Source: Ruminococcus sp. | GTDB taxonomy: Bacteria > Bacillota > Clostridia > Oscillospirales > Ruminococcaceae | Length of the DNA: 64,000 nt | NCBI GenBank assembly: GCA_017519145.1 | Contig: JAFWTA010000038.1 | Coordinates: 48,981 to 112,980 of the forward strand | Direction: 5' to 3' | Shown here: positions 56,207-64,000 of the stretch, in pieces | How positions within the stretch are numbered: the first letter of the stretch is position 1 | Layout of the letters: each line of letters begins with the position of its first letter | Notes under the pieces: model-generated | The model's database searches: none | Told to the model about the DNA's origin: nothing | What the model saw: the letters and a program-made list of their open reading frames with translations, nothing else | Program-made: the position numbers and the translations under genes

Positions 56207-57103
56207 ATGAAAAAAATTATTTCACTCATTTCATCTATCGTGCTTGCAGCAGGTATGACAACTGCTATGGCAGCAAATGCAGTTAATGTTGAGGACTATA
56301 AGCCCAGTTTCTTCTTTAAGGCTGAGGAGAGTACAGGTGTAGAGGTGCTCAAGTACGGTTCTGTATTCGTAAACAGAAGTACAGCTCCCGAGGGAACAAA
56401 GATACCCGCTGCTGTATATTTTAGTGATGACTATCATTATGCAGGTCAGATCTTTGTTAAGTGGAACTGCGAGAAAACTGATCTTCAGCTTACAGATCTT
56501 ACAGGACCTTTTGCAAAGGCAGGCGGCTGTCCTTATAAGATCACAGGCATCAATTCCGATGCTGATCTGGTAAATCTTCTCAATACATTCCCTGAACTCA
56601 ATATGATGGCAGTTAATTACACTGAGACAAATGTAAACAAGCCTCTCCAGCTGACAGGCACAGAATCCTATGATTATCCTCTGGCTTGCTTCAATGCTGT
56701 ATTCAAGAGCGGTGCAGCTGGCGGAAGCTATGATATCGAATTCTATGATCAGGGCAATTACTTCACAGCAGTTGTACCGAGATTCCCTGACGATCCCAAG
56801 CTTTCCATAGAAGTACATCCTGCTGAGTACAGTGAAGGTCTTCGCATAAACTGTTCCGACAGAATGCTCGGCGATATCAATGATGATAAAATGATCGACG
56901 CAGTTGACGCTTCATCTATTCTTGCAGCTTATGCTAAGATATCATCTAGTATGGAGTCTGGTCTCAGCGATGATCAGCTTGCCGCAGCAGATGTTGACGG
57001 AAACAAGAAGGTCGACGCAGTTGACGCCAGCAATGTTCTGGGATACTATGCATTTATTTCAGGAACAGGAACAGGCACACTCAATGAGTTTGTAAAGAGA
57101 TAA
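56207..57103 (+). CDS. Secreted dockerin protein with an unknown beta domain
   Basis: 298 residues. Signal peptide (cleavage near MAANA, about 25). Residues 30-218 form a beta-rich domain (FVNRSTAPEGTKIPAAVYFS; CFNAVFKSGAAGGSYDIEF) whose rhythm recalls cohesin-like sandwiches, but no firm match. The end is a type I dockerin with two loops, LGDINDDKMIDAVDASSIL and ADVDGNKKVDAVDASNVL, nearly the same type as in the protease at 16628-19879. If the beta domain is a cohesin, the protein would be an adaptor scaffoldin. It lies behind mtnN with a strong ribosome site. Confidence 0.85.
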   Translation: MKKIISLISSIVLAAGMTTAMAANAVNVEDYKPSFFFKAEESTGVEVLKYGSVFVNRSTAPEGTKIPAAVYFSDDYHYAGQIFVKWNCEKTDLQLTDLTGPFAKAGGCPYKITGINSDADLVNLLNTFPELNMMAVNYTETNVNKPLQLTGTESYDYPLACFNAVFKSGAAGGSYDIEFYDQGNYFTAVVPRFPDDPKLSIEVHPAEYSEGLRINCSDRMLGDINDDKMIDAVDASSILAAYAKISSSMESGLSDDQLAAADVDGNKKVDAVDASNVLGYYAFISGTGTGTLNEFVKR

Positions 57104-59152: not shown

Positions 59153-59204
59153 TTGTTTATAAAGCCGAAAAGCGGCTTTGAATAACATGATAGGAGGAAT
59201 TATA

Positions 59205-60968
59205 ATGAACAAGCTATTCAAAAAAATCGTATCCATTGTTATGTCAGCCTCCATGTGTATGTCAGGCGGGATCGTTGCTGCCCATGCAGAAGACGAGCCG
59301 GATTGGTCTTTCTTGCCATATACTGAGATCAATACTGACCAGACAAATGTAGAGGGCGCCAGCGGACTCTATGATTACGTTGCATGGAGAGGCAATGAAG
59401 CTGACGAGACCAAATTCAGTATCGGCAGCTTTGGTGTGTACAACTGCGAATGGGATCTTAACGACAGTGCCCTGTTCATGACAGGACATAAAGTTGATAA
59501 ACGCGGCACCAGCTATATCGAAGGCTCAGATATCTATATCTCATACCGTGCAAATATAGACTGTGACGGTTACTATACCTTCGGCGCATATGGCTGGATG
59601 AACGATTGTTCAACAGAGTACTTTATCATCGACGACTGGGGCGACTACAAGCCTTGTCAGGATAAGGAGCCTGTTGGTTCAGTAGAGACCGAGGGCGGAG
59701 TATACGACATTTACAAAGTCAGAACTGTTTCATCTCTTTGCACGTTAAACTCATCGATCGGCCCATATCAGTACTGGAGCGTTCGCCGTGAAAAGCTTTC
59801 GGAGGATTACAATACATTCTCAAATACAATAGCTGTTTCCGAGCACTTTGCGGCATGGGAAGAGGTCGGAATGCCTGTAAACGATCTGTATGAGGTCATG
59901 CTGTGTGTTGACCCGTTCAACTCTAAGGGAAGTGCGAAGGTTCTTAATAACAGTATTTACTATGTTGTTCCCGACCCTGAGGCAGAGATCCCCGACCCCG
60001 ATGAAGAGCCATATGTTCCCGAGAACATAGATCAGGTAACATTCACCGAAGCTGCTGGTGATGAGCGCGGAGGATACTTCTATAGCCTTTACGATGATAC
60101 TATCTTCGGTCAGGGCGGCACTATGAAGATGGATGTTCTTGACGGCGGAAACTTCAACTGTGAATGGAATAACAATTATCGTGTTTCTTTCTGCAGAGGT
60201 CTTGCTTATCTTGACAAGAACAACACAAGGTCTATTGTAAGAGAGTATGCAGGTGAGGATATCTCCATAGATTATAAGGCTGATATTGAATCAGATGGTA
60301 CAGTTTTTGCAGGTGCATACGGCTGTCTCAATAATAGCAGAGTTGATTGTTACATAGTTGACGGCTGGAAGGACTGGCAGATAAGTGATAAAGCAGAGTA
60401 TCTCGGTACAGTAAGTATCGACGATGGCGTTTACGACCTTTACAGGACTCCGTTCAACGGTTTCTTTGAGGAATACTGGAGCGTCCGCAAGGACAACAAG
60501 CTTTCGGAAGACGGAACTATGGAAGGCACTATCCCTGTTTCAAAGCATCTTGATGCATTCGTAAAGTACGGTCTTGGTATTGCCGATCCCAATAGAGTAT
60601 TGTTTACCGTAGAGGGAAGAGACGGTTCAAGCGGTTCTGCTGAGATCACAAAGAACATTGTCAAGATAGACGGCGTTGATATTGCAGTATCTGCCGGATT
60701 TGAGTCGCTGGAGAATAACGAGGCTCCTGCTGAGGAGGAAGATGTTTACATTCCCGGCGATCTTAACAACGATCAGACAGTTGACTCATTTGATCTTGTT
60801 GTTGCCCGCAGAGAGCTTATAAAGGCTATCGACGGCAATGACACCATTGTTGAAGCTGATATCGATTGCAGTGGTGCTACACAGATCAATGATCTGGTGC
60901 TTATCACAAGAATAGTTCTCGGAGACGAGGTATCTGTTCCCAAGACAAGACCACAGCGCTTAAAGTAA
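59205..60968 (+). CDS. Secreted dockerin protein with two GH11-like domains missing catalytic residues
   Basis: 587 residues from ATG 59205 (TAGGAGG before it); signal peptide to about 28. Two tandem domains (about 55-255 and 285-485) each follow the GH11 xylanase plan: FGAYGWMNDCSTEYFIIDDW and QYWSVRR, VSEHFAAW, NSKGSA in copy 1; AGAYGCLNNSRVDCYIVDGW, EYWSVRK, VSKHLDAF, SSGSAE in copy 2. In active GH11 enzymes the nucleophile is Glu in YYIVE; here it is Asp143 and Asp386. The acid/base Glu is Asp236 in copy 1 but Glu470 in copy 2. Residues 513-573 form a dockerin (PGDLNNDQTVDSFDLVVAR). It should be exported and docked, perhaps binding xylan without cutting it. Flanked by its own promoter and terminator. 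Confidence 0.9.
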   Translation: MNKLFKKIVSIVMSASMCMSGGIVAAHAEDEPDWSFLPYTEINTDQTNVEGASGLYDYVAWRGNEADETKFSIGSFGVYNCEWDLNDSALFMTGHKVDKRGTSYIEGSDIYISYRANIDCDGYYTFGAYGWMNDCSTEYFIIDDWGDYKPCQDKEPVGSVETEGGVYDIYKVRTVSSLCTLNSSIGPYQYWSVRREKLSEDYNTFSNTIAVSEHFAAWEEVGMPVNDLYEVMLCVDPFNSKGSAKVLNNSIYYVVPDPEAEIPDPDEEPYVPENIDQVTFTEAAGDERGGYFYSLYDDTIFGQGGTMKMDVLDGGNFNCEWNNNYRVSFCRGLAYLDKNNTRSIVREYAGEDISIDYKADIESDGTVFAGAYGCLNNSRVDCYIVDGWKDWQISDKAEYLGTVSIDDGVYDLYRTPFNGFFEEYWSVRKDNKLSEDGTMEGTIPVSKHLDAFVKYGLGIADPNRVLFTVEGRDGSSGSAEITKNIVKIDGVDIAVSAGFESLENNEAPAEEEDVYIPGDLNNDQTVDSFDLVVARRELIKAIDGNDTIVEADIDCSGATQINDLVLITRIVLGDEVSVPKTRPQRLK

Positions 60969-60972
60969 AGTT

Positions 60973-61002
60973 AAAAGCTCCCCTGATAGGGGAGCTTTTT
61001 TT
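60973..61002 (+). terminator. Terminator after the pseudo-GH11 gene
   Basis: An 11-bp stem AAAAGCTCCCC (60973-60983) with a TGATA loop and its complement, running into seven T residues. Confidence 0.93.
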
Positions 61003-61045: not shown

Positions 61046-61048
61046 CAG

Positions 61049-61101
61049 TGCCGCTGACCGGACTTGAACCGGTACGATATTGCTACCGAGGGATTTTAAG
61101 T
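61049..61101 (-). pseudogene. 3' half of tRNA-Leu(TAA), attachment-site scar
   Basis: On the minus strand these 53 bases match the tRNA-Leu part from anticodon loop to discriminator: loop CTTAAAA with anticodon TAA (61098-61096), the 3' anticodon stem TCCCT, variable arm, T arm CCGG-TTCAAGT-CCGG and acceptor strand CAGCGGCA. The 5' half (acceptor, D arm, 5' anticodon stem) is absent; the sequence changes at 61102. Such scars arise when a tyrosine-integrase element enters a tRNA gene and restores it at the other end. The intact gene should lie beyond the right edge. Confidence 0.85.
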
Positions 61102-61114
61102 TTTTCCGTAAGCT

Positions 61115-61154
61115 CGGCAATTCACGGCAGTTCACGGCAATTCACGGCAGTTTA
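61115..61154 (+). repeat. Four tandem 10-bp repeats next to the attachment site
   Basis: CGGCAATTCA, CGGCAGTTCA, CGGCAATTCA, CGGCAGTTTA in direct tandem (61115-61154), alternating A and G at one position. They lie 14 bases inside the element. Another direct repeat, CCGTAAGCTCG, occurs at 61106-61116 and 61210-61220. Confidence 0.85.
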
Positions 61155-61254
61155 TGCCCTCAAAAAGCTCGCATTTTCGGGAGTTTTAAGACCTTCAATC
61201 TCCTTCTGACCGTAAGCTCGTAAAAAACGAAGAAATCAGAAAAACGGTCGATTT

Positions 61255-61344
61255 GGTAGAAATGTGGTAGAAAGAATTGCGCTTCGACTTGTTTTCGGCA
61301 GAAAAGGTGGTAGAAAGTTGGTAGAAACGAAATCTTGGTAGAAT
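61255..61344 (+). repeat. Five GGTAGAAA repeats, candidate integrase arm sites
   Basis: GGTAGAAA at 61255, 61266, 61309 and 61320, and GGTAGAAT at 61337. The first four form two pairs, each with 11-base spacing (one helical turn). Similar short arm-type sites flank the core sites of Tn916/lambda-type integrases. Confidence 0.7.
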
Positions 61345-61382
61345 GGCGTTGTTGCGAAGAAAAACCGAATAATTAGTAGCTT

Positions 61383-61429
61383 ATAGCGTGTAGCGTAAAG
61401 TGATAGTATCACGGAGCGCTATACGCTAT
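61383..61429 (+). repeat. Large palindrome
   Basis: A 13-bp stem (61383-61395 with 61417-61429, one G-T pair) encloses a second stem GTGAT/ATCAC (61400-61412). TTTTTA follows, so it could also terminate transcription. The inner motif GTATCAC recurs in the inverted repeat at 61569. Confidence 0.7.
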
Positions 61430-61458
61430 TTTTATGCCTGAAAACTGAATATACCGAT

Positions 61459-61489
61459 AACGCTCCTCAGCAATGAGGGGCGTTTTTTT
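61459..61489 (+). terminator. Terminator within the element's left end
   Basis: An 11-bp stem AACGCTCCTCA (61459-61469) with a GCAA loop, one G-T pair, and a run of seven T residues. It would block host transcription from entering the element genes. Confidence 0.85.
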
Positions 61490-61568
61490 ATTGTCAAAAC
61501 TTATAAATCCCAGCGATTCACCATCAACATCAGACATGATAGCCATAGCCACACGCTATTTCGCTGAT

Positions 61569-61597
61569 GTATCACTATTGCCTGAATATAGTGATAC
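61569..61597 (+). promoter_or_regulatory. 10-bp inverted repeat, candidate operator
   Basis: GTATCACTAT (61569-61578) and ATAGTGATAC (61588-61597) are perfect complements, 9 bases apart, about 90 bases before the first gene of the element. The half-site is shared with the palindrome at 61383-61429. Confidence 0.6.
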
Positions 61598-61683
61598 TTG
61601 TATTCAATTTATTACATTATATCATGTCTGCTGTTTTTAGTCAAGCAAAATGGAAAATATTACCGAAAAATAGGAGGTTTTTT

Positions 61684-61938
61684 ATGTCTGAACGCCAGAT
61701 CATCACGATCAGCGATGATAAGCTGTCCTGCGAAGCAACAGCTATACTGCTGAGAATGCTCAACTTTCCTGATACGGACTATCATACCGCAGAGGAGCTT
61801 TGTCCGTTCTTTGAGAATGATTCGCTGAAAACTATCAGGAACGCTCTGAATGAGCTTTACGATGCAGGCTACCTCCGACGCAGCGGTAAGACCTATATGG
61901 TCAACAAGGTTAGGATCACACAAATGAAGCTCGCCTGA
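61684..61938 (+). CDS. Small winged-helix protein of the element
   Basis: 84 residues from ATG 61684 with TAGGAGG upstream; the frame extends back but without a ribosome site. The body LLRMLNFPDTDYHTAEELCPFF and LKTIRNALNELYDAGYLRRSG has the pattern of a winged-helix DNA-binding fold. It could be a regulator of the replication or transfer genes. No close family is recognised. Confidence 0.75.
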   Translation: MSERQIITISDDKLSCEATAILLRMLNFPDTDYHTAEELCPFFENDSLKTIRNALNELYDAGYLRRSGKTYMVNKVRITQMKLA

Positions 61939-61962
61939 GCTGCAAACAGGAGGAAAATGGAT

Positions 61963-62988
61963 ATGTCTGCTAAAAAATCGAAAAAGAACAAAACAACAGC
62001 TTCATCGGTGTGCCGTGTCAATAAAAACGCCAACTATACCGTAATGAGCAATTATCATCTGCGGTCAACGAACCTCAGCCTGAAAGCAATCGGGCTTCTG
62101 AGTAAGGTTCTTTCTCTGCCGGAGAATTGGGATTACTCTATCTCAGGTCTGACGGCTATCTGCAAAGAGAAAGAAACAGCGATCAAGGCAGCATTAGATG
62201 AGCTGAAGCATTGGGGCTATCTTGTTGTCACGAAGCTGATGCCGAATGAAACAAACAGCGGTCGAATCGAGTATGTCTACGATTTCTATGAGTATTCCGA
62301 AAAGGATACGCCTGATGCTGACCAGAACGATGATGATACATACGATGAGGACGGAGATGTTTCAACAATCTCCGTAAAAAAAGCTCCGCAAGGGGCAGAA
62401 AAACAAGGCATAGAAAATCTACCCCTTGAAATTCTACCCATAGAAATTCAAGCGGTAGAAAATCAAGGGCAAATAAATACTAAGAAGAAAATAAAGAAAA
62501 ATCAAATACTGAGTGATCAAGTATCTATCAATCAATCCCTCTCCGACAGCGAAAAATCCGTTGAAAATGTTGAAAGTCAGACAGATGGACTGATTGACGG
62601 ATATATCAGCGAAAAAGAAGTTTATACCGATGTGGTGAAAACCAACATCGAATTTCCTTACTTTGCAGAATGGCTCGGAGATGAGGAAGAAGCTGAGGAG
62701 ATCGTTCAGATGATCGTTCGGCGGATATGCTCCCGAAAGAAAACAGAGCGTATCTGCGGACAGGACTTCCCCAGGGAGGTTGTCAAGTCCGCTATGCTCA
62801 AGGTTGATATAAACGTTCTTGAAAACGCTATTGAGCAGATGAAGCGAACAGACAACGTTCGGAACTATGAGAGTTATCTTATCAGCACTCTGTTCAACGA
62901 AGCCAACGGCAAGCGTTTCAAGGAAAATGCTGAGGGACGGTGGGCTGAGTATGCTGTCAAGAGAGATTTTGGCGGTTACGATGACTGA
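61963..62988 (+). CDS. Replication-initiator-like helix-turn-helix protein
   Basis: 341 residues from ATG 61963, where AGGAGG is 9 bases upstream (ATG 61957 is too close). The N-terminal winged helix (NLSLKAIGLLSKVLSLPENW, ISGLTAICKEKETAIKAALDEL) is typical of RepA/replisome-organiser proteins of clostridial conjugative elements. An acidic low-complexity middle (about 125-215) follows, with repeated EN and EI patterns, then a DUF6017-like C-terminal helical domain (WLGDEEEAEEIVQMIVRRIC). It probably starts element replication. Confidence 0.75.
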   Translation: MSAKKSKKNKTTASSVCRVNKNANYTVMSNYHLRSTNLSLKAIGLLSKVLSLPENWDYSISGLTAICKEKETAIKAALDELKHWGYLVVTKLMPNETNSGRIEYVYDFYEYSEKDTPDADQNDDDTYDEDGDVSTISVKKAPQGAEKQGIENLPLEILPIEIQAVENQGQINTKKKIKKNQILSDQVSINQSLSDSEKSVENVESQTDGLIDGYISEKEVYTDVVKTNIEFPYFAEWLGDEEEAEEIVQMIVRRICSRKKTERICGQDFPREVVKSAMLKVDINVLENAIEQMKRTDNVRNYESYLISTLFNEANGKRFKENAEGRWAEYAVKRDFGGYDD

Positions 62989-63013
62989 ACGTTCCTGAGA
63001 GGAGGTGGTGGCT

Positions 63014-63049
63014 ATGGGTGCGGTGAAGAAATCGGACGTAGCCGCTTGA
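63014..63049 (+). CDS. 11-codon micro-ORF with a strong ribosome site
   Basis: MGAVKKSDVAA, preceded by GAGGAGGTGG, ends in TGA. A second short frame of 14 codons (63053-63097) overlaps the next gene start. They may be leader peptides that couple translation; function unproven. Confidence 0.3.
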   Translation: MGAVKKSDVAA

Positions 63050-63089
63050 TAGATGGCAAATAAGATTTTGGGAAAGGAAGGTGAAGATC

Positions 63090-63368
63090 ATGGCTAAGAC
63101 TATCGCTACGCAGTATGGTGAGTTCCTGAACTATGATAATCTCGTCAAGATCGGTATTGAAATGAATTGGGACGATGCCGAGCCGGACGAGAACGGCATT
63201 GTCACTCCCGATTATGAGATGATCGGAACGGATACCTGTGGCAATAAGATTCCTATGGGAAACTATAAGACACCCGAAGAAGCTGAAGAAGCACTCAAAG
63301 ACCTTCATGACTGGCTGGGTATGGAAGCCTATGCGGTCTATGAGGTCAAGTTCGGCGGTGATGCCTAA
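63090..63368 (+). CDS. Small acidic element protein, unknown function
   Basis: 92 residues from ATG 63090 behind AAGGAAGGTGA. It begins AKTIATQYGEFLNYDNLVKI and is acidic overall (WDDAEPDENG, EEAEEALKDLHDW). No signal peptide and no recognised family. It overlaps the PcfB-like gene by one base, so it is co-transcribed with transfer genes. Confidence 0.75.
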   Translation: MAKTIATQYGEFLNYDNLVKIGIEMNWDDAEPDENGIVTPDYEMIGTDTCGNKIPMGNYKTPEEAEEALKDLHDWLGMEAYAVYEVKFGGDA

Positions 63369-63844
63369 TGCCGTCGGACTATGAGAACGGTGCGAAGAAA
63401 ACTATCGACATTTCGATCAAGGCGGAGAAAATGACCGCTGATGTGCTGAAATCGGCATTGCAGGAGTTTATGTCGGGCAAGGCAGAGAAAAAAGGGCGAA
63501 TGACCTACAAGCAGTTGCAGGCTAAATCGCCGTCCAAGCTCGACAGCATTGAGGTTTCGGACAGGAATATCGGAGATTTTCTGAAAACCGCAAGGAAGTA
63601 TGATGTGGATTTTGCCCTGAAAAGAGATAAAAGCACCACTCCGCCTACCTATCATGTTTTCTTTTCCGCTGCTAAGACAGAGGATTTCAAGAGAGCATTT
63701 TCAGAGTATGTCGGAAAGGGACAGGGCAAGACACAAAAGCGTGGAGAGTTCACCCGTGAGCAGATGCAGCAGCAGGCTCAGAAGCTCAGGAGCAAACCTC
63801 GCAAACAGAAACAGAGAGAGAAAACAAGGGAGAACAGACGATGA
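63368..63844 (+). CDS. PcfB-like (DUF3801) conjugation protein
   Basis: 158 residues. MTADVLKSALQEFMSGKAEKKG, KLDSIEVSDRNIGDFLKTARKYDVDFALKR and FFSAAKTEDFKRAFSEYV match the DUF3801/PcfB family, whose E. faecalis member (pCF10) helps the relaxosome meet the coupling protein PcfC. The C-terminus is very basic (KPRKQKQREKTRENRR), suiting nucleic-acid binding. Confidence 0.85.
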   Translation: MPSDYENGAKKTIDISIKAEKMTADVLKSALQEFMSGKAEKKGRMTYKQLQAKSPSKLDSIEVSDRNIGDFLKTARKYDVDFALKRDKSTTPPTYHVFFSAAKTEDFKRAFSEYVGKGQGKTQKRGEFTREQMQQQAQKLRSKPRKQKQREKTRENRR

Positions 63845-63947
63845 TCTACGGCTATTTCATGCCTGCACCCGTTCCACGGGCAAGGGGCGATGATGTTTTT
63901 ACGGCGGTTTTTGATGCCGATACCAACAGAAAGGAAAGGTCTGCACA

Positions 63948-64000
63948 TTGCAGATCGACACGAGAAAACTCAAAAAGCTGATCATCAAGGCTATCCCCTA
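63948..64000 (+). CDS. VirD4/PcfC-type coupling protein, N-terminal fragment
   Basis: Only 17 full codons before the window end: start TTG 63948 (AGAAAGGAAAGG lies 8 bases before it), then QIDTRKLKKLIIKAIP. This is how many clostridial T4SS coupling proteins begin, just before the first membrane helix. It directly follows the PcfB-like gene, as pcfB-pcfC do. The call rests on order and a short sequence. Confidence 0.55.
   Translation, partial: MQIDTRKLKKLIIKAIP

Follow-up and report, generated by a model that had tools for sequence, protein, structure and literature searches.

GH11 endo-1,4-beta-xylanases (PF00457; solved structures include 1igo and 4ixl) are jelly-roll enzymes that carry two catalytic Glu residues, a nucleophile and an acid/base, together with a thumb that ends in a P-S-I type tip (passages of PMC9165906 served as a check on the thumb and the Glu pair). 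According to sections of PMC7519127, deletion of P-S-I from the thumb turns a GH11 inactive, and 4HK8 is a GH11 whose acid/base Glu was changed to Gln for ligand-binding studies. Proteins with two GH11 domains and a dockerin (GH11-GH11-Doc) are listed for Ruminococcus flavefaciens strains 17 (WP_019679180) and 007c (EWM54934) in Table 4 of PMC4081043, where they are counted among multifunctional proteins; other GH11 architectures, in strain FD-1, can be found in parts of PMC2721979 and PMC2930009. The words "inactive" and "truncated" are absent from the main text of PMC4081043, and no comment on the catalytic residues of the GH11-GH11-Doc protein was found in its relevant passages. A literature search with the string GH11-GH11-Doc or either accession led to PMC4081043 only, and one for inactive or pseudo GH11 proteins in this setting, covering mostly listings and the starts of abstracts, found no description. 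The architecture is already known; eroded catalytic sites were not found in print.

PsXLP1, a GH12 protein that is not known to have a dockerin or a tandem repeat, offers a further point of comparison. Like the protein described here, it is a glycosidase paralogue without known activity that stands beside an active enzyme; unlike it, PsXLP1 comes from an oomycete and is truncated (sections of PMC5814044).

The protein analyzed here, P0001, is encoded within a 64,000-nucleotide stretch of Ruminococcus DNA (the window). Its architecture and species group are those given in Table 4 for WP_019679180 and EWM54934, and a full-length orthologue, putatively EWM54934 itself, is present at the 007c locus (L042). 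Both copies within P0001 match GH11 xylanases over the whole domain (1igo, 4ixl; PF00457). Unlike those enzymes, neither copy has a complete Glu pair or the thumb-tip motif, and the thumb of copy 2 is shortened. Copy 1, like copy 2 of five orthologues, resembles the 4HK8 mutant, as described in those sections, in that the nucleophile Glu is kept and the acid/base residue is changed; unlike the engineered 4HK8, the tandem series is natural, uses Asp, Ser or Thr besides Gln, and has a changed thumb as well. Copy 2 of P0001 is the reverse of the 4HK8 case, with the nucleophile changed. The window protein is one of a wider set of such proteins, whose role may be to grip plant fibre rather than to cut it.

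The gene, its product and its catalytic positions

The open reading frame is real; it starts with ATG at position 59205 and encodes 587 residues. Its features, in window coordinates, are:

59192..59197, plus strand: AGGAGG ribosome-binding site 5' of the ATG (read directly)
59205..60968, plus strand: whole gene, encoding a probable signal peptide, GH11-fold copy 1, GH11-fold copy 2 and a dockerin (587 aa)
59205..59288, plus strand: probable signal peptide, residues 1-28, ending ...AHA/ED (by eye)
59370..59942, plus strand: GH11-fold copy 1, residues 56-246 (best PF00457 stretch; 1igo, 6.7e-34)
59616..59618, plus strand: Glu138 (GAG), nucleophile position of copy 1, intact (alignments)
59910..59912, plus strand: Asp236 (GAC), acid/base position of copy 1, Glu replaced (alignments)
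60066..60680, plus strand: GH11-fold copy 2, residues 288-492, thumb about 8 residues short (4ixl, 5.6e-24; thumb lengths)
60345..60347, plus strand: Asp381 (GAT), nucleophile position of copy 2, Glu replaced (alignments)
60612..60614, plus strand: Glu470 (GAG), acid/base position of copy 2, intact (alignments)
60753..60917, plus strand: dockerin, residues 517-571, two calcium-loop repeats (Pfam; 2ccl)
60973..60999, no strand assigned: hairpin with a T run, likely transcription end of the gene

The hairpin was reported on the minus strand only; it is near-palindromic, and by eye it is followed by a T run on the plus strand too.

PF00457 matches P0001 with an E value of 1.7e-51 over two stretches, and both copies match solved structures with the GH11 jelly roll (1igo; 4ixl), copy 2 still doing so when taken alone (with the 4ixl value given above). 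The dockerin scores 18.8 bits in one Pfam scan, below the cut-off of 22.9, and 23.9 bits, above it, in another. It also matches 2ccl, the dockerin of a C. thermocellum xylanase (E 2.7e-6); by that match and the 23.9-bit score P0001 has the two-repeat dockerin of a cellulosome subunit. The start of the protein, read by eye, resembles a signal peptide, and P0001 is probably exported. A reading made earlier from the sequence only, which had described a duplicated, exported-looking, dockerin-bearing protein with two GH11 domains, is borne out in these respects. NCBIfam gave no family for P0001 and nothing above cut-off for six relatives, and one viral scan, aimed at a viral origin, found no relative.

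The catalytic positions follow from alignment. In copy 1, TEYFIIDDWG falls on TEYYIVDNWG of 1igo, which places the nucleophile position at Glu138; in copy 2, VDCYIVDGW falls on VEFYIVDSW of 4ixl, which places it at Asp381. This register is unchanged in an alignment of 24 domains (nine of copy 1, nine of copy 2 and six outside GH11s). Thus, copy 1 is Glu/Asp (E138/D236) and copy 2 is Asp/Glu (D381/E470), and the two catalytic Glu residues of a GH11 xylanase are together in neither module. The sequence-only reading had taken Asp143 and Asp386 for the nucleophiles, Asp in both copies. Alignment to solved and canonical GH11s rejects that assignment as five residues off: Asp143 and Asp386 correspond to the conserved Asp that closes the YYIVD motif, on the same strand and five residues past the nucleophile position. 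Its acid/base residues, Asp236 in copy 1 and Glu470 in copy 2, agree with the alignment. The role it proposed, binding or altered chemistry, remains a fair reading given that there is no complete Glu pair, but its premise that both nucleophiles are Asp does not hold, since Glu138 is kept. For the sensing role that it also named, the analysis turned up no pertinent observation.

Orthologues, selection and locus

Some part of P0001 is matched (E 0.001) in at least 121 of 125 genomes of the genus, and its whole length in at least nine of the 125, the window's own genome included, at 40-90% identity. The other eight orthologues come from R. flavefaciens SAb67, ND2009, 007c and XPD3002 and from four Ruminococcus metagenome-assembled genomes (MAGs). 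In a sample of 396 genomes of the family, the full-length tandem was seen in only two genomes among the matches listed, both of the genus, with at most three candidates scored per genome and absences correspondingly weak. The residues at the four catalytic positions (window numbering; nucleophile and acid/base of copy 1, then of copy 2) are:

Window protein: 138 E, 236 D, 381 D, 470 E
SAb67: 138 E, 236 D, 381 D, 470 E
ND2009: 138 E, 236 D, 381 E, 470 E
L039: 138 E, 236 E, 381 E, 470 S
007c: 138 Q, 236 Q, 381 E, 470 E
RUI288: 138 E, 236 E, 381 E, 470 S
RGIG8024: 138 E, 236 E, 381 E, 470 T
L041: 138 E, 236 E, 381 E, 470 T
XPD3002: 138 E, 236 E, 381 E, 470 T

Among the nine, the pair in copy 1 is E/E in five, E/D in three and Q/Q in one, and that in copy 2 is E/E in two, D/E in two, E/S in two and E/T in three. 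No protein has two E/E modules. Seven of the nine have exactly one (copy 1 in five, copy 2 in two), and the window protein and SAb67 have none; because an E/E module is present in those seven, the tandem family cannot be described simply as a dead enzyme. The two copies were also checked for mutual exclusion of E/E, but the nine orthologues offer too few independent rows: with five and two E/E modules among nine, zero overlap is expected by chance about once in six, and the rows are related. Across the 18 domains the nucleophile Glu is retained in 15 and the acid/base Glu in nine. By a hand count on the nine-row tree, the four positions have undergone at least seven substitutions (1+2+1+3). 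A search of the homologues for the same Asp substitutions finds D236 in three of the nine and D381 in two; the rest differ. The protein had been called conserved beforehand; that is right insofar as it is under purifying selection, but not for the catalytic residues, given these substitutions.

By the Nei-Gojobori method, comparison with SAb67 yields dN/dS values of 0.057 (copy 1), 0.134 (copy 2) and 0.050 (dockerin), and comparison with ND2009 yields 0.118, 0.113 and 0.068. A conventional single-GH11 protein gives 0.004/0.214 (0.019) against SAb67, 0.004/0.425 (0.009) against ND2009 and 0.067/0.674 against a more distant strain. As in a pseudoenzyme, selection persists although the catalytic residues have changed. 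A sequencing error or a pseudogene is rejected, since the frame is open in nine genomes and dN/dS is low; the SAb67 protein, with 90% identity and the same two Asp, also speaks against an error.

The surroundings of the gene are partly shared. The upstream gene order is common to six of the nine loci, and a second dockerin protein, of 298 aa and with no other Pfam domain, is encoded two genes upstream (window 56207-57103) and lies at the same place in six of the nine loci. On the 3' side of the gene there is a partial tRNA-Leu(TAA) (54 of 85 bases, 61048-61101) that is identical to that of locus L037, and an intact tRNA-Leu(TAA) occupies that spot in L037, L038, L039 and L042; ARAGORN found zero tRNAs in the window. 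From 61048 to 64000 the window holds ORFs without a counterpart in the relatives (DUF6017, DUF3801 and a weak HTH). Since the tRNA-Leu is broken in the window and intact in the relatives, the tRNA gene seems to have been the insertion point of an integrative element. In the MAG RUI288, an unrelated run of genes lies downstream of the orthologue (L040:12180-21619), with no tRNA-Leu. The site may therefore have received insertions more than once.

Comparison with conventional and more divergent GH11 modules

PF00457 lists 82 places in the nine tandem-carrying genomes. A control set of 38 regions, seven other loci and the nine orthologues, without two short fragments of genome G088 (C81, C90), was searched with a profile built from six outside GH11s and yielded 88 domains: nine of copy 1, nine of copy 2, 43 conventional and 27 other divergent ones. 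This split is not blind, because the sorting followed sight of the residue table, but it agrees with the Pfam score (at least 153 bits for the 43 conventional domains, at most 116 for everything else) and with a tree in which the 42 distinct conventional rows fall on one side of a branch. This tree is a quick one that covers 82 of the 88 domains (rows with fewer than 150 positions and duplicates were dropped, and long branches are present); in it, copy 1, copy 2 and the conventional domains each lie on one side of a branch, with SH-aLRT values of 85, 98 and 98. The tandem therefore looks old, and its copies seem to have descended in place.

Every conventional domain that could be scored at both positions is E/E (41 of 41; two more end at contig ends before the acid/base residue). 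The other divergent domains are scorable at both positions in 19 of 27 cases, and five of these are E/E. A thumb-tip pattern, composed after the conventional segments had been viewed, occurs in 43 of 43 conventional domains, one of nine copy-1 domains, none of nine copy-2 domains and one of 27 other divergent domains; the copy-1 match, in ND2009, is probably due to chance. The strict form PS[IL] is present in 25 of the 43 conventional domains and in none of the others. The thumb segment spans 20-22 residues in the conventional set, 18-23 in copy-1 domains and 12-13 in copy-2 domains, and both copies of the window protein are without the P-S-I type tip.

Other positions are altered as well. That of Trp9 (B. 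circulans numbering) holds Tyr, Phe or Leu in each of the nine copy-2 domains, and those of Tyr80, Arg112 and Gln127 are changed in many domains, so that classical xylan binding is not guaranteed. Overall, columns that are invariant in conventional GH11 are retained to 58% in copy 1 and 54% in copy 2. Seven cleft columns, picked by hand from GH11 residue numbering and a list in PMC7519127, compare with the other 32 as 0.62 versus 0.58 in copy 1 and 0.46 versus 0.55 in copy 2. Selective erosion of the active site is thus not supported: cleft columns are retained about as often as other conserved columns, and because they are not clearly more eroded, the divergence is general rather than aimed at the active site.

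A wider class emerges with a profile, A4, that was built from 31 modules (22 from other divergent proteins, nine from the tandems) and searched in the same nine genomes. Among the retrieved ORFs, 26 have at least two modules: the nine tandems, L114, which is a conventional modular xylanase, and 16 others. Each of these 16 combines two to four GH11-like modules of greater divergence with a dockerin hit, although the A4 hits arise partly by construction because the profile includes modules from 11 of the 16. PF00457 is above cut-off in 12 of them and below it or absent in four (L158-L161); every one of the 16 has a Dockerin_1 hit, which passes the cut-off in 13 and falls short of it in L101, L109 and L121. 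One four-module array, L157:1951-5136 (G000:C36), comes from the same genome as the window. The nucleophile Glu is present in five of 16 scorable modules of the most divergent arrays, L157-L161, on an uncertain alignment. A profile search against solved structures returned only chains named as xylanases or CDBFV among the best 60 of 124 matches.

The arrays vary in build. L157, L134, L158, L159, L160 and L161 join three or four very divergent GH11-like modules to a dockerin, and L101, L121, L117, L119, L122, L107, L138, L116, L108 and L109 are multi-module GH11-like Ruminococcus proteins with a dockerin hit. In L107, L116 and L138 the first GH11-like module is followed by a stretch that Pfam does not match, then by a dockerin and then by the second module; the catalytic positions of the first module are Ser/Asp in L107 and L138. 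In another genus of the family, an 897-aa ORF (L162, G362:C47) has three GH11 modules that are E/Q, E/Q and E/E in order, the first two alike in having a Glu nucleophile and a Gln acid/base. The search that gave L162 scored at most seven candidates per genome, and its absences are weak. Restriction of multi-domain GH11-like proteins to the genus is rejected on the strength of L162. In a further ORF, of 519 aa (L164, G041:C13), Lys takes the place of the nucleophile in a GH11 domain (PLVKYYIIE).

Somewhat short of an even chance, we think, is the broad reading of this set: that in Ruminococcus cellulosomes the GH11 fold has been recast as a class of repeat-built modules that bind glycans or serve in some other non-hydrolytic way. 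Such a class would comprise dockerin proteins in which two to four GH11-like modules follow one another, and would run from the window tandem, in which the nucleophile is mostly kept and the acid/base residue and thumb are lost, to nucleophile-poor arrays beyond the reach of Pfam GH11.

Binding, slow catalysis and other possible roles

For P0001 itself, the leading reading, to which we give about an even chance, is a secreted cellulosome subunit, evolved from GH11 xylanases, whose main task is binding. Its two jelly-roll modules, their clefts open and the thumb missing or altered, would hold xylan chains, or alternatively a side-chain-rich xylan; pairing of the modules would give two-site avidity; and the C-terminal dockerin would plug the protein into a cohesin of the host scaffold. 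Little or no hydrolysis is predicted because the Glu pair is lost; with both Glu residues in neither module of this strain, hydrolysis should be absent or very slow. We infer export, the xylan ligand, binding as the main role, low activity, the open clefts and the choice of cohesin. The host genome, for its part, has 11 cohesin matches (10 over cut-off), so that cohesins are present in the same genome as expected for a cellulosome subunit, and at least 84 dockerin matches (150 of 192 candidates scored); a scaffold is therefore available for P0001 to join. The solved relatives closest to its dockerin are type I dockerins of C. thermocellum, and in parts of PMC5301203 the ScaC-binding groups 3 and 6 are said to resemble type I dockerins; ScaC as the cohesin partner of P0001 is a guess. 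In favour of the binding reading stand the broken Glu pair of both modules beside uniformly E/E conventional domains, the changed thumb (loss of P-S-I inactivates a GH11 according to PMC7519127), a natural series that often resembles the 4HK8 change, purifying selection, the separate branches of the tree, the shared upstream gene order and the cellulosome context.

Several observations count against this reading. One E/E module is present in seven of the nine orthologues; the change from Glu to Asp is conservative and may leave slow turnover; the divergence is not concentrated in the cleft; and in L157-L161 the nucleophile Glu, too, appears mostly lost. P0001 could instead be a true but slow or re-targeted glycosidase, in which one module does the chemistry and the other binds or regulates; we regard this as unlikely, but as a serious contender. 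In this strain, Glu138/Asp236 or Asp381/Glu470 would still support hydrolysis at a slow rate, or else transglycosylation, and the substrate might be one whose leaving group is good. Such an enzyme would account for a single E/E module that alternates between the copies in seven of nine orthologues and for the retention of the nucleophile Glu in 15 of 18 domains, which exceeds the mean for invariant columns (58% and 54%), and both replacements in this strain are Asp, which is still a carboxylate. However, neither the window protein nor SAb67 has any E/E module, all seven E/E modules elsewhere lack the thumb motif, one of them lying in the shortened-thumb copy 2, and the pattern of one E/E module per protein is not statistically established, given the chance expectation and related rows noted above. 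The better retention of the nucleophile than of the acid/base residue (15 versus nine of 18) is compatible with a binding cleft as well as with a residual enzyme.

Alternatively, the modules may be spacers or scaffold pieces, or may drift under weak constraint, with the GH11 fold as a stable body on which the catalytic sites float. The seven or more substitution events at four catalytic positions, the lack of preferential retention of cleft columns, module dN/dS values against SAb67 and ND2009 that exceed those of the conventional single-GH11 protein (0.019 and 0.009), and the loss of most nucleophile Glu residues in the most divergent arrays all point this way. We nevertheless consider it improbable, since selection at dN/dS 0.06-0.13 and persistence across nine lineages with 40-90% identity are not what loss of function looks like, and the nucleophile of the tandem family is retained above average. 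Least probable of all, and by a wide gap from an even chance, is a bodyguard role in which dead xylanase modules absorb plant xylanase inhibitors and so shield the active GH11s of the cellulosome. A precedent exists in PsXLP1, which shields PsXEG1 from the plant inhibitor GmGIP1 (sections of PMC5814044), and conventional GH11 domains are present in the same genome, one of them in a 421-aa frame (G000:C52). However, XIP-type inhibitors recognize a face that includes the thumb, which has lost length in copy 2 and is altered in copy 1, and a series of ever less similar modules would mimic an active xylanase poorly.

Because the GH11 profile catches most of these proteins, annotation and enzyme inventories would count them as xylanases. 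If they bind rather than cut, the number of xylanases ascribed to rumen cellulosomes would be inflated, and the tandem family would display a route from enzyme to binding module with its intermediates still visible (E/E, E/D, Q/Q, E/S and E/T). The orthologue series makes the question of binding versus cutting directly testable on small, expressible domains.
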